From Anaeroplasma bactoclasticum (GTDB taxonomy: Bacteria > Bacillota_I > Bacilli_A > Acholeplasmatales > Anaeroplasmataceae), in contig NZ_QXEV01000016.1 of the NCBI RefSeq assembly GCF_003550015.1, positions 1 through 40,594 of the forward strand: a stretch of DNA of 40,594 bases, given 5' to 3'. Position numbers and translations under genes: made by a program. Of this stretch, positions 6,691 through 9,587 are shown piece by piece. The first letter of the stretch is position 1; every line of letters starts with the position of its first letter. A model generated the notes under the pieces. The model saw nothing but the letters and a program-made list of their open reading frames with translations, searched no databases and had not been told where the DNA came from.

Positions 6691-7230
6691 ATGGAAAACA
6701 TTTCGCAGATGTCATTATTAGAAGTTGCTTTAAAAATTATGAACGAAAAGGGTACTGTAGTTAATATTTATGATTTAATTAACGAGGTTTTAGCTGCAAA
6801 AGGCATTGATGACCCTGATAATGTATACGCAACTCAGTTATATGTTGACATCACTACTAGTTCGAAATTTGTATATATGGGCGATGACAATTGGGATTTA
6901 AAGTCTCGCCAATCTCTAGATCAGTTCGACAAGGATGGTGCCTTCTTCAATCCTAAGGGCGCAGAAGACGCTTATGATGATGAAGAGGATGAAGAAATCT
7001 TTGACGATGAAGATGATGAGGAACTTGATGAAGAAGATGAAGATGAAGAGTCTGACGATGAGGACGAAGACGAGGATGATGAGTCTGAGGAAGACGAAGA
7101 TGAAGACGAAGAGTCTTATGATGATTTAGATTCTGAGGATGAGGAATCCGATGAGGATGACGATAACTCCATCGACGAGGATAAGTATAACGAATACATG
7201 GATGATTACGAGGATTTATACGAAGCATAA
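6691..7230 (+). CDS. rpoE: DNA-directed RNA polymerase delta subunit
   Basis: The 179-residue protein has the two-part layout of Gram-positive RpoE: a folded N-terminal winged-helix domain (about 1-85, starting MENISQMSLLEVALKIM) and a long disordered tail made almost only of Asp and Glu. Delta binds RNA polymerase, displaces nucleic acid and speeds recycling. The ATG at 6691 is chosen because GGAGG at 6678-6682 is correctly spaced; an in-frame ATG at 6676 overlaps that site. The tail is coded by GAT/GAA/GAC repeats and creates long false frames on both strands. Confidence 0.93.
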   Translation: MENISQMSLLEVALKIMNEKGTVVNIYDLINEVLAAKGIDDPDNVYATQLYVDITTSSKFVYMGDDNWDLKSRQSLDQFDKDGAFFNPKGAEDAYDDEEDEEIFDDEDDEELDEEDEDEESDDEDEDEDDESEEDEDEDEESYDDLDSEDEESDEDDDNSIDEDKYNEYMDDYEDLYEA

Positions 7231-7284
7231 TCTCATAATTTCCCATAAATTTCGTGGAATTTACCGATTTTGTATGATAAATTA

Positions 7285-7428
7285 ACAATAATGTATTGGT
7301 AGACTATAGTTGTCTTAAGAAGACGAATATCTAGTCTCTAAATAGAGGCAGGTACTTTTTCATAAGCAAACTATAACTCTCCCAATTTGCGATAAAGAAC
7401 ATCTGCCCAGATGTTCTTTATTGCTTTT
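7285..7428 (+). ncRNA. unidentified structured small RNA
   Basis: Between rpoE and the response regulator lies a gene-free segment able to fold into a multi-branched RNA. A closing helix pairs GG-AGA-TATAGTT (7298-7311) with AACTATA-TCT-CC (7369-7383). Inside are hairpins GTCTT/AAGAC (7312-7324) and GTCTCT/AGAGGC (7334-7349, loop AAAT). A 13-base-pair terminator follows. The next gene has its own promoter after that terminator, so the RNA is likely independent, or an rpoE 3' leader remnant. It does not match any riboswitch, 6S RNA or SRP RNA consensus that I recall. The 5' end is estimated from a weak promoter (TATGAT, 7273-7278). Confidence 0.5.
7392..7428 (+). terminator. strong intrinsic terminator of the small RNA
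   Basis: ATAAAGAACATCT (7392-7404) pairs perfectly with AGATGTTCTTTAT (7409-7421) around a four-base loop, followed by TGCTTTT. This is one of the longest stems in the window. Confidence 0.85.
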
Positions 7429-7450
7429 ATAGAAAAAATAATGATAAAAT
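7421..7450 (+). promoter_or_regulatory. promoter of the two-component operon
   Basis: TTGCTT (7421-7426), an 18-base spacer and an extended -10 TGaTAAAAT (7442-7450). It begins at the last bases of the preceding terminator, so the two-component genes are transcribed separately from the small RNA. Confidence 0.6.
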
Positions 7451-7476
7451 ATAAGAATAGAAAGGTCGTGTTTTAT

Positions 7477-8148
7477 ATGTACAAAATTGGTTTAGTAGAA
7501 GACGAAAAGAATTTATCTTCTTTAGTTGAAAAATATTTAATTAACGAAGGGTATGAGGTAGAAGTATTTAATAACGGAGAAGATGCAAGTGCGCATATAA
7601 AAGATAACTTTTCCTTATGGATTTTAGATATAATGCTTCCTGGGGTTATCTCAGGATATGATTTAATCAAAAGTATTCGTCAAGAAAATCCAACAATGCC
7701 TATTATTTTTACATCCGCAAGAGATCAAGATATTGATAAGGTAATGGGCTTAGAGCTTGGTAGCGATGATTATGTTGCAAAGCCTTATTCTGTAAGAGAA
7801 TTAATGCTTCGAGTTAAGAATTTATTAAATAGAAGCTATGGAATGGTATCTCCTAAAAAGTCTAATACAGAAGAATTCAATGGATATGAAATAGATTATG
7901 ATAAGAGAATTGTAATGGAAAATGGTGTTAATATTAATTTAACATCCAAGGAGTATGACCTTTTATTATTCTTATTAAAGAATAAATCTAAGGCATTTTC
8001 TAGAGATCAGATATTAGATAATGTCTGGGGAATGGATTATTTTGGCTCAGATAGAGTTGTAGATGACTTAATGAGGCGTTTAAGACAAAAAATGCCAAAT
8101 CTAAGTGTAGAAACCATCTACGGCTTTGGCTATAGATTACTTGTATGA
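7477..8148 (+). CDS. OmpR/PhoB-type response regulator
   Basis: The 223-residue protein has a receiver domain with the acidic pair Glu8/Asp9, phospho-acceptor Asp51 (ILDIMLPG), Thr79/Ser80 and Lys102 (AKPYS). A C-terminal winged-helix DNA-binding domain follows (LTSKEYDLLLFLLKNK ... VDDLMRRLRQKM ... TIYGFGYRL). It would activate or repress genes when phosphorylated by the kinase encoded next. The ATG at 7477 follows GAAAGG; upstream in-frame starts would lack this site. Its TGA stop overlaps the kinase start by 4 bases (ATGA). No target operator is recognisable in the window. Confidence 0.93.
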   Translation: MYKIGLVEDEKNLSSLVEKYLINEGYEVEVFNNGEDASAHIKDNFSLWILDIMLPGVISGYDLIKSIRQENPTMPIIFTSARDQDIDKVMGLELGSDDYVAKPYSVRELMLRVKNLLNRSYGMVSPKKSNTEEFNGYEIDYDKRIVMENGVNINLTSKEYDLLLFLLKNKSKAFSRDQILDNVWGMDYFGSDRVVDDLMRRLRQKMPNLSVETIYGFGYRLLV

Positions 8149-9587
8149 TGAAGAAGTTTTCAATTTCAACCCAGTTATTAGTTTTAGTATTTACTCTTCT
8201 TTTATCTACATCCATTATATTTATTATTATTTCTTATTTTTCTATTCAAAGGGTTGCAGAAGGACAAGCAGTCTTAAGAATGTATTCTCTTGATTCACAA
8301 ATTGTAATAGATCCTACAACAAATGATGCGAAATCCCCTTTCGATGATATGAAGCTTCATTATATTACTTTTGATAAAGATAATACTTTATATAATGAAC
8401 AATTAGGCTATCATATTTCAAAAACGGCCAATGATTATATTTCCTTAGAAGAATTTCAGGAGTATTTTGAGAATTATTTAAAAAATAAAGTTAATTTTGA
8501 ATTTTCTAAAGATGACCAAAAGCCACCGAAAAATCCTGAAGAAACGAATCTTTTAGTTGATAATCAAGATTCAATGGAAAATAACAAAATACCAGAAAAA
8601 AAATATAAAGGTGCTGACTTTTATAAAACAAAAAATGGATATACACTTTATTATGTGTTTTCATGCAATAGAGAGTTTACAAAGTATTCATTCATTTTTA
8701 CAGATGATGCATTCACAAGTAATCTTACAAGAGATGTAGCATTAAGAATGTTTTCAACATTCCTTGCAATATTATTTATTGCAATAATGTGTATTTATGT
8801 ATGGAGTACAAGAATCACTAGAAGATTAAAAAATATTCAATATCATATTATGAATTTACCAAAGAATAAATATGAAAAGGAATATATCGATGATAGTGAT
8901 GATGAAATAGGTGAATTATCAAAATCTGTTGAGGATATGAGAAAAGAAATTGGTCATAATGAGAAGACAAAGCAAGATATGCTTCAAAATATTTCTCATG
9001 ATTTTAAAACACCTATTGCAGTTATTAAATCCTATGCCGAGGCACTACAAGATGGTATGGCAGGTCCTGAGGCTTTAGATACTATTATTGAACAGGCAGA
9101 ATCCTTAAAAAATAAAGTAAATAGATTATTACAATACAATTCACTTGAATACTTAACAAAGGATAAGCCATTTGAAGGAATCAATATGACAGAGCTTGTA
9201 AATCGAGTTATATCGAATTACAAATTCCAAACAAAATTGGATTTTAATTTAGATTTAGAGGATAATGTTATCTTTATGGGATACCAAGAAAATTGGTCTA
9301 CTGTTATTGGAAATATTATTGATAACGCAAAGCGTTATGCAAAAACAGAAATTAAGATTACATTAAGATCTAACTATCTTAAAATTTATAATGATGGTGA
9401 GCACATTGATGAGCAATTCTTAAATTCTATATTTAAACCATATGAAAAAGGCTCTAAGGGTCAATTTGGCCTTGGAATGTCTATTGTTAAAAAGACAGTA
9501 GATTTCTTTGGAATGAATATGATTGTAAGAAATGAAGAGGGTGGAGGAGTATCCTTCATCATTAAAAAGGACGAAGTGCACGAATAA
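8145..9587 (+). CDS. sensor histidine kinase of the two-component pair
   Basis: The 480-residue membrane kinase has transmembrane segments at about 10-32 and 200-221 flanking an extracellular sensor region of about 165 residues. That region contains a Pro/Asn/Glu-rich hydrophilic stretch (about 120-155) and resembles no sensor family I can name. Next come a HAMP-like linker, the H-box NISHDFKTP with His285, an N-box (NIIDNAKRYA) and a G-box (GQFGLGMSIVKKTVDFFG). It should autophosphorylate and pass phosphate to the regulator encoded just upstream, to which it is translationally coupled. The stimulus is unknown. Confidence 0.92.
   Translation: MMKKFSISTQLLVLVFTLLLSTSIIFIIISYFSIQRVAEGQAVLRMYSLDSQIVIDPTTNDAKSPFDDMKLHYITFDKDNTLYNEQLGYHISKTANDYISLEEFQEYFENYLKNKVNFEFSKDDQKPPKNPEETNLLVDNQDSMENNKIPEKKYKGADFYKTKNGYTLYYVFSCNREFTKYSFIFTDDAFTSNLTRDVALRMFSTFLAILFIAIMCIYVWSTRITRRLKNIQYHIMNLPKNKYEKEYIDDSDDEIGELSKSVEDMRKEIGHNEKTKQDMLQNISHDFKTPIAVIKSYAEALQDGMAGPEALDTIIEQAESLKNKVNRLLQYNSLEYLTKDKPFEGINMTELVNRVISNYKFQTKLDFNLDLEDNVIFMGYQENWSTVIGNIIDNAKRYAKTEIKITLRSNYLKIYNDGEHIDEQFLNSIFKPYEKGSKGQFGLGMSIVKKTVDFFGMNMIVRNEEGGGVSFIIKKDEVHE

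Follow-up and report, generated by a model that had tools for sequence, protein, structure and literature searches.

The window, a stretch of 40,594 nucleotides from Anaeroplasma bactoclasticum (contig NZ_QXEV01000016.1), contains a segment of non-coding DNA (7285-7428) between rpoE and the gene of an OmpR-type response regulator. The rpoE gene ends at 7230, and the C-terminal tail of its product is very long and rich in Asp and Glu (6950-7230). The start of the response regulator is placed at 7477, while the mechanical list of open reading frames has it at 7411. For this protein, no NCBI model scored above cut-off among the 25 matches listed. The features of the locus are the following.

7229-7249, plus strand: candidate regulator-type tandem-repeat box AATCTCATAATTTCCCATAAA, overlapping the rpoE stop and matching the family box at 17 of 21 positions
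7300-7305, plus strand: -10 element TAGACT, placed by alignment with the family
7305-7310, plus strand: alternative, overlapping -10 element TATAGT with a -35 element TTAACA at 7282-7287, from the window sequence
7312-7428, plus strand: proposed small RNA (sRNA) of about 117 nt, with a covariance-model match at 7306-7428 (86.8 bits)
7312-7324, plus strand: hairpin 1, GUCUU-AAG-AAGAC, from comparison of the arms copy by copy
7328-7354, plus strand: hairpin 2, from the same comparison; diverged in this copy, which is missing the CUCCCU loop of most copies
7354-7386, plus strand: conserved core ACUUUUUCAUAAGCAAACUAUAACUCUCCCAAU, from BLAST and alignment of relatives, with CUCUCCC at 7377-7383
7389-7428, plus strand: intrinsic terminator, a 16-bp stem (7389-7424) and a T-rich tail, from the fold and from pair changes in relatives
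7442-7450, plus strand: proposed own promoter of the two-component genes, TGATAAAAT, of the extended -10 type, from the window sequence
7477-8148, plus strand: response regulator of the OmpR type, proposed to activate the sRNA copies (Pfam Response_reg and Trans_reg_C)
8145-9587, plus strand: sensor histidine kinase, the presumed partner (Pfam HisKA and HATPase_c, with HAMP just under cut-off)

The segment 7285-7428, terminator included, has a minimum free energy of -49.6 kcal/mol, compared with -23.7 +- 3.3 for shuffled sequences (z -7.9), and none of 200 shuffles was equally stable. The initial annotation described a multi-branched RNA closed by a helix between 7298-7311 and 7369-7383 and ending in a terminator of 13 pairs. 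The helix can form in the window DNA, but most of its 5' arm belongs to the promoter, and the helix is not conserved among the 79 copies of the RNA considered below. Its counterpart is as stable as -9 kcal/mol in 6 of these copies and -6 in 18 (median -4.1), and the multi-branched fold with such a helix is not supported. As judged from the copies, the closing helix is a property of the window DNA and not of the sRNA family. The terminator is present, with 16 pairs instead of 13.

When the region 7230-7478 was compared with 60 relatives by BLAST, some match was found in 40. The strong matches, which include another copy in the same genome as the window, have a stretch at about 7355-7387 in common. 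From 31 of the 38 copies first collected an alignment (A1) was made, the diverged ones, among them the window copy, being left out, and a covariance model was built from these 31. RNAalifold found only the terminator on the MAFFT alignment, and hairpin 2 was supplied by hand (model R2). The model gave 87 matches in 49 of the 55 genomes of the organism's own bacterial family (E <= 0.01). For the counts below, 87 copies, presumably the same ones, were taken as non-redundant from listings of 97, 35 and 24 rows, in which many rows are the same copy under several locus identifiers, and no duplicate was flagged. One match was found in 24 of the positive genomes, two in 16, three in eight, and seven in one, so that 25 of the 49 carry at least two. 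Neighbouring or tandem copies occur at G026:C147 24495-24820, G061:C16 21690-22009, G064:C9 18920-19367 and G063:C6 1832-9622, and recall the lhrC1-4 cluster. Of 160 genomes from across the order, the model matched 48 at E <= 0.001, every one within the family, and none of the 105 genomes outside it gave a match. A sample of the class likewise gave 11 positives among 296 genomes, all in the family. Both wider searches used stricter filters, in which weak matches are lost. Named records with the core comprise 51 stretches titled Anaeroplasma, Anaeroplasmataceae, Acholeplasmatales, Mollicutes or, for a few of them, Erysipelotrichaceae, Bacillales or only 'bacterium'. The sRNA family thus appears confined so far to the Anaeroplasmataceae, a family name taken from the titles of the named records.

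The structure of the RNA was compared copy by copy. Eighty of the 87 copies score at least 45 bits, and the seven weaker ones were dropped from the counts for the box, the -10 element, the neighbourhood and sequence motifs. Where counts refer to 79, one further copy with too short an upstream sequence was dropped; counts for hairpins and for unpaired probability are drawn from the 63 copies of at least 75 bits. The elements follow each other from 5' to 3' as box, -10, hairpin 1, hairpin 2, core and terminator. In 61 of the 63 copies the stem of hairpin 1 is 4 bp or longer, and its arms vary yet match. In hairpin 2 the stem reaches 6 bp or more in all 61 copies with a CCCU loop. Examples of matching arms are GUCUU/AAGAC, GUAAUC/GAUUAC and GUACUC/GGGUAC. 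Because only one of the seven pairs of hairpin 2 shows a two-sided change on the MAFFT alignment, support for this hairpin is taken from the arms of the individual copies. In minimum-energy folds of single copies, UAAGC of the core is often the partner of the 5' arm of hairpin 1, and energy does not separate these alternatives. The compensatory changes that the initial annotation proposed to look for are present in the relatives, with two-sided changes at all eight aligned terminator pairs and hairpin arms that change together, so that on the side of sequence the claim of a structured RNA stands.

Between hairpin 2 and the terminator lies a near-invariant strand, CUUUUUCAUAAGCAAACUAUAACUCUCCC, which is largely unpaired. 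Its part AACTCTCC is present in 73 of 80 copies, a conservation that is partly by construction, the copies having been found via the core. Predicted probabilities of being unpaired average 0.92 for CUCUCCC, 0.93 for the CUCCCU loop and 0.74 for the whole core. CCCU occurs ahead of the core in 72 of 80 copies, while the window copy is without a C-rich loop. Overall, the sRNA gene and the family to which it belongs are very probably real.

The RNA fits no Rfam family, in line with the initial annotation, which could match it to no known family. In a search with all 4227 Rfam families, the window gave no match at gathering score, and at the relaxed cut-offs, E <= 10 for the window stretch and E <= 1 for the loci of eight relatives, nothing credible appeared. 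The best relaxed match for the window, ncr1015, reached 23.9 bits against a gathering score of 60; it lies on the minus strand and rests on the terminator. Together with a weaker plus-strand match, it was rejected as an identity. The relatives' loci gave only a weak PreQ1 riboswitch match (L006:1355-1407, minus strand, 25.2 bits against a gathering score of 39). It sits between an sRNA copy and a gene of a QueT cluster, which would suit PreQ1.

The copies also share a promoter region, which lies outside the covariance model by which they were found. Ahead of the model start, 76 of 79 copies have a hexamer that agrees with TATAAT at four or more of six positions, and all 79 have G as the likely first transcribed base. 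Because of the position of the -10 element and this invariant G, G7312 is the likely first base of the RNA in the window. Upstream lies the family box, the tandem repeat TTTCACATAATTTCMCATAAT with a period of 10 bp, usually 50 bp before the -10 element. A match of at least 15 of 21 positions was found in 63 of 79 copies, compared with 3.25 expected from shuffles; the consensus came from these very copies, a circularity that inflates the excess in score but does not explain the fixed position. Relative to the model start, the box begins at -56 in 53 copies, at -57 in one, at -76 or -77 in four, including the window copy, and elsewhere in five. The remaining 16 of the 79 copies, including a group of second copies in one genus, score below 15. 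The window box thus starts 77 bp before the model start where 56 is usual, and the shift of 20-21 bp amounts to two helical turns, as would be expected for an activator that must face the polymerase. The box is kept before 32 of the 43 unlinked copies with enough upstream sequence.

Several observations point to the adjacent response regulator as the protein that binds this box. Its ortholog is present in 51 of the 55 genomes of the family, and 36 of these 51 have an sRNA copy ahead of the regulator gene, in the same orientation and at a distance of 30-127 nt (median 39). In two further genomes the distance is 522 and 1739 nt, the latter at L199 (G034:C20). At the 15 regulator loci without a close match, inspection by eye revealed a degenerate RNA in L186, L190 and L197, and a box with a different hairpin in L193 and L194. 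Some genomes, e.g., G008, G009, G012, G032 and G065, possess the regulator but gave no sRNA match, while G011 and G020, whose assemblies are incomplete, gave sRNA matches and no regulator ortholog. Tandem repeats with a 10-bp period suit OmpR-type regulators. Control of the sRNA by the adjacent regulator is therefore proposed with moderate confidence. It is rather unlikely that the sRNA family is real but that some other regulator binds the box and the neighbouring two-component system is incidental. In favor of this alternative, the genomes hold further OmpR-type regulators. Moreover, when the 55 genomes were searched for the box with at most one mismatch, 56 sites were found, compared with seven for the reversed pattern, and by coordinates 26 of them lie beside an sRNA match and 30 do not. 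However, regulator and sRNA are found side by side in different genera of the family, with changing genes on the other side, and box-like sequences with the same spacing precede orthologs of the regulator outside the family. The sites away from sRNA matches, which include perfect or near-perfect ones at G061:C9:17823 (L172), G035:C4:38565 (L173), G026:C98:8927 (L160) and others, are possibly further members of the regulon. In the organism's own genome a looser search was uninformative, with four sites for the box and four for the control.

The close linkage upstream of the regulator, together with a conserved core that abuts the terminator, also fits a cis-acting leader, in which the RNA would be the 5' part of the two-component operon, acting as an attenuator or in the manner of a riboswitch with conditional readthrough of the terminator, and the other copies would lead other genes. 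The unlinked copies, however, adjoin varied genes, including those for QueT and alanine-racemase-N proteins (Pfam) and, by eye, RidA, acetate kinase and ribosomal protein L19. In 12 of 43 of them the next gene, according to crude gene calls, is convergent, and 11 of these 12 have the box. These 12 copies cannot be leaders of that gene. In addition, the arms of the terminator are variable, and the core was not seen to pair with either of them. The two-component operon probably has its own promoter because an exact TATAAT within 60 nt after the RNA is commoner after linked copies (28 of 36) than after unlinked ones (16 of 42), and the separate downstream promoter of the initial annotation is plausible in the window as well, where TGATAAAAT follows the RNA. 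A leader thus seems unlikely, and the earlier suggestion of a stand-alone sRNA gains support from the one to seven matches per positive genome, many of them away from the two-component genes.

Acting in trans, the RNA would be expected to pair with mRNAs, and its exposed C-rich segments suggest where. Predicted pairing was scanned in about 430 kb of the organism's own genome, the window included, and in about 350 and 387 kb of G017 and G031, with genes and lipoproteins called by crude patterns. In the own genome, the core prefers start regions over gene interiors by -2.85 kcal/mol, whereas 60 shuffled cores averaged -1.59 +- 0.57 and went down to -2.92; in each of the genomes G017 and G031, only one of 60 shuffled cores was as low as the real core. 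At lipoprotein starts, the shuffled cores as low as the real one numbered 1 of 100, 1 of 120 and 0 of 120 in the three genomes, and it is only in this comparison that lipoproteins are favored. By energy alone, the preference for lipoproteins is weak (p = 0.051, 0.092 and 0.17). Once Shine-Dalgarno strength is removed, lipoproteins are not separated from other genes in the own genome (p 0.147), and starts encoding MKK, MKN or MKR stand out (p 0.00023). The idea of lipoproteins came from reading the core, and several groups of genes were tried in the own genome before one fixed statistic was repeated in the two others. Two lipoprotein-like paralogs with the same start, GAGAGGGAGATAAAAAAATATGAAAAAG (G000:C2:227367 and C2:228499), are good candidate targets. 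Lipoprotein mRNAs are the most likely targets, and the role would then be an envelope response, but confidence in this least certain step is low.

It is quite improbable that the RNA instead acts by binding a protein, through titration as in CsrB/RsmZ-type RNAs or in the manner of 6S RNA. The length and invariance of the core probably exceed what pairing seeds usually require, and RNAs of the CSR type are also multicopy and under two-component control (PMC4132741). The exposed motifs, however, are C-rich and not GGA, and in all three genomes the core is predicted to bind start regions better than almost all shuffled cores. A short peptide gene on the minus strand, for which the reverse complement of the core offers a resemblance to a translation start (GGGAGAG and, 13 nt on, ATGAAAAA), can be rejected as extremely improbable, since in 60 copies the frame from the ATG ranges from 3 to 36 amino acids with no common end and the box, -10 element and terminator are all on the plus strand.

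Comparison of the copies establishes the gene, its structure, the shared box and the linkage to the response regulator. The reading that we favor, and consider probable though well short of certain, is that the locus encodes a stand-alone, trans-acting sRNA of a multicopy family that is controlled by the adjacent two-component system and whose C-rich motifs cover ribosome-binding sites. The OmpR-type regulator, once phosphorylated by the neighbouring kinase, would bind the box and activate the dispersed copies together. The CUCUCCC strand and the CUCCCU loop would then pair with Shine-Dalgarno sequences, and CUUUUUCAU of the sRNA with starts of the form AUGAAAAAG, reducing translation of the targets. 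If these are lipoprotein mRNAs, the outcome would be an envelope response.

Two known systems are built in a similar way. LhrC1-5 of Listeria monocytogenes are multicopy sRNAs, all dependent on LisRK, that carry UCCC in both loops and in a single strand, and LhrC blocks translation at the Shine-Dalgarno region of an envelope protein mRNA (PMC4132741). The sRNA family resembles them in its several copies per genome and in its UCCC-type motifs in a hairpin loop and a single strand. It differs in that TCCC occurs in the terminator part of only 7 of 80 copies, whereas LhrC has UCCC in the terminator loop. In addition, one copy here sits beside the regulator gene, and both regulator dependence and targets are predictions. 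LhrC, which has an Rfam model, was absent from the matches to the window, both at gathering score and, for the stretch with the RNA, at E <= 10, and from those to the eight relatives' loci at E <= 1. The streptococcal csRNAs, which are under the control of CiaRH, lie behind the repeat TTTAAG-N5-TTTAAG and are complementary to the Shine-Dalgarno sequence and AUG, and some of them are without the nonamer [A/C]UCCUAAA[A/C] (PMC3091779, PMC8186281). Here, too, several similar sRNAs per genome have a direct-repeat box, a -10 element and two stem-loops, and a region that is predicted to be unpaired is complementary to the Shine-Dalgarno sequence and AUG, the core having both CAU and CUCUCCC. The CiaR box, however, was found in none of 80 copies within 110 nt upstream, the family box having a 10-bp period; the csRNA nonamer was likewise found in none of 80, and a near form, [AC]TCCCTAA, in 11.

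The sRNA family also shares an exposed UCCC-type motif (PMC4132741), expected to cover the Shine-Dalgarno sequence, with RsaE/RoxS, FsrA and other C-rich sRNAs of low-GC Gram-positive bacteria. The Rfam models for RsaE/RoxS and FsrA-type RNAs gave no match for the window copy at E <= 10 or for the eight relatives' loci at E <= 1. We know of no dispersed multicopy sets of these sRNAs linked to a two-component gene. By analogy, the sRNA probably works like LhrC under LisRK and the csRNAs under CiaRH. Because no copy among 80 has the CiaR box or the csRNA nonamer and only 7 carry UCCC in the terminator region, the defining sequence features fail and, judged by these, the family belongs under neither. 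Titles and opening abstract lines of open-licence papers on small RNAs of Anaeroplasma and Acholeplasma show no account of it. It is a new family, without an Rfam match, of a known kind, that of sRNAs present in several copies and controlled by a two-component system.

The box and promoter may be older than the sRNA family. An ortholog of the regulator is found in 65 of the 105 genomes of the order outside the family (E <= 1e-50; 116 of 160 minus 51), a set in which the sRNA model finds nothing. In 20 upstream regions of such orthologs, ten score at least 13 of 21 for a box exactly 50 bp before a -10 candidate, and seven of these at least 15, counts that are without a shuffled control. Many of the regions continue with CTTCATTTTTCTCTC or a close form. 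In L206-L225, about 260-300 nt upstream of the outside orthologs, a box-like sequence, a -10 element, CTTCATTTTTCTCTC and a short hairpin precede the regulator, and this element is possibly a different, older RNA at the same place. A motif search in the outgroup gave mainly single places linked to the regulator and no clear multicopy family. One tentative possibility, which we regard as doubtful, is that box-driven sRNA control linked to the two-component system goes back to the ancestor of the entire order. In genomes outside the family it would be exerted by another short transcript, one that contains CUUCAUUUUUCUCUC and is likewise suited to covering a start region, and in the Anaeroplasmataceae it would have become a dispersed multicopy regulon directed against lipoprotein mRNAs. 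If so, an RNA-based envelope response would exist in relatives of the wall-less mycoplasmas.

In conclusion, the finding places a multicopy sRNA family of this kind in Anaeroplasma-like gut relatives of the mycoplasmas, and the box provides a handle on the targets of the regulator in uncultured bacteria. If the favored reading is true, LisRK with LhrC, CiaRH with the csRNAs and the family in the Anaeroplasmataceae would be separate arrivals at one design, in which a sensor kinase drives several C-rich RNAs and these cover ribosome-binding sites.
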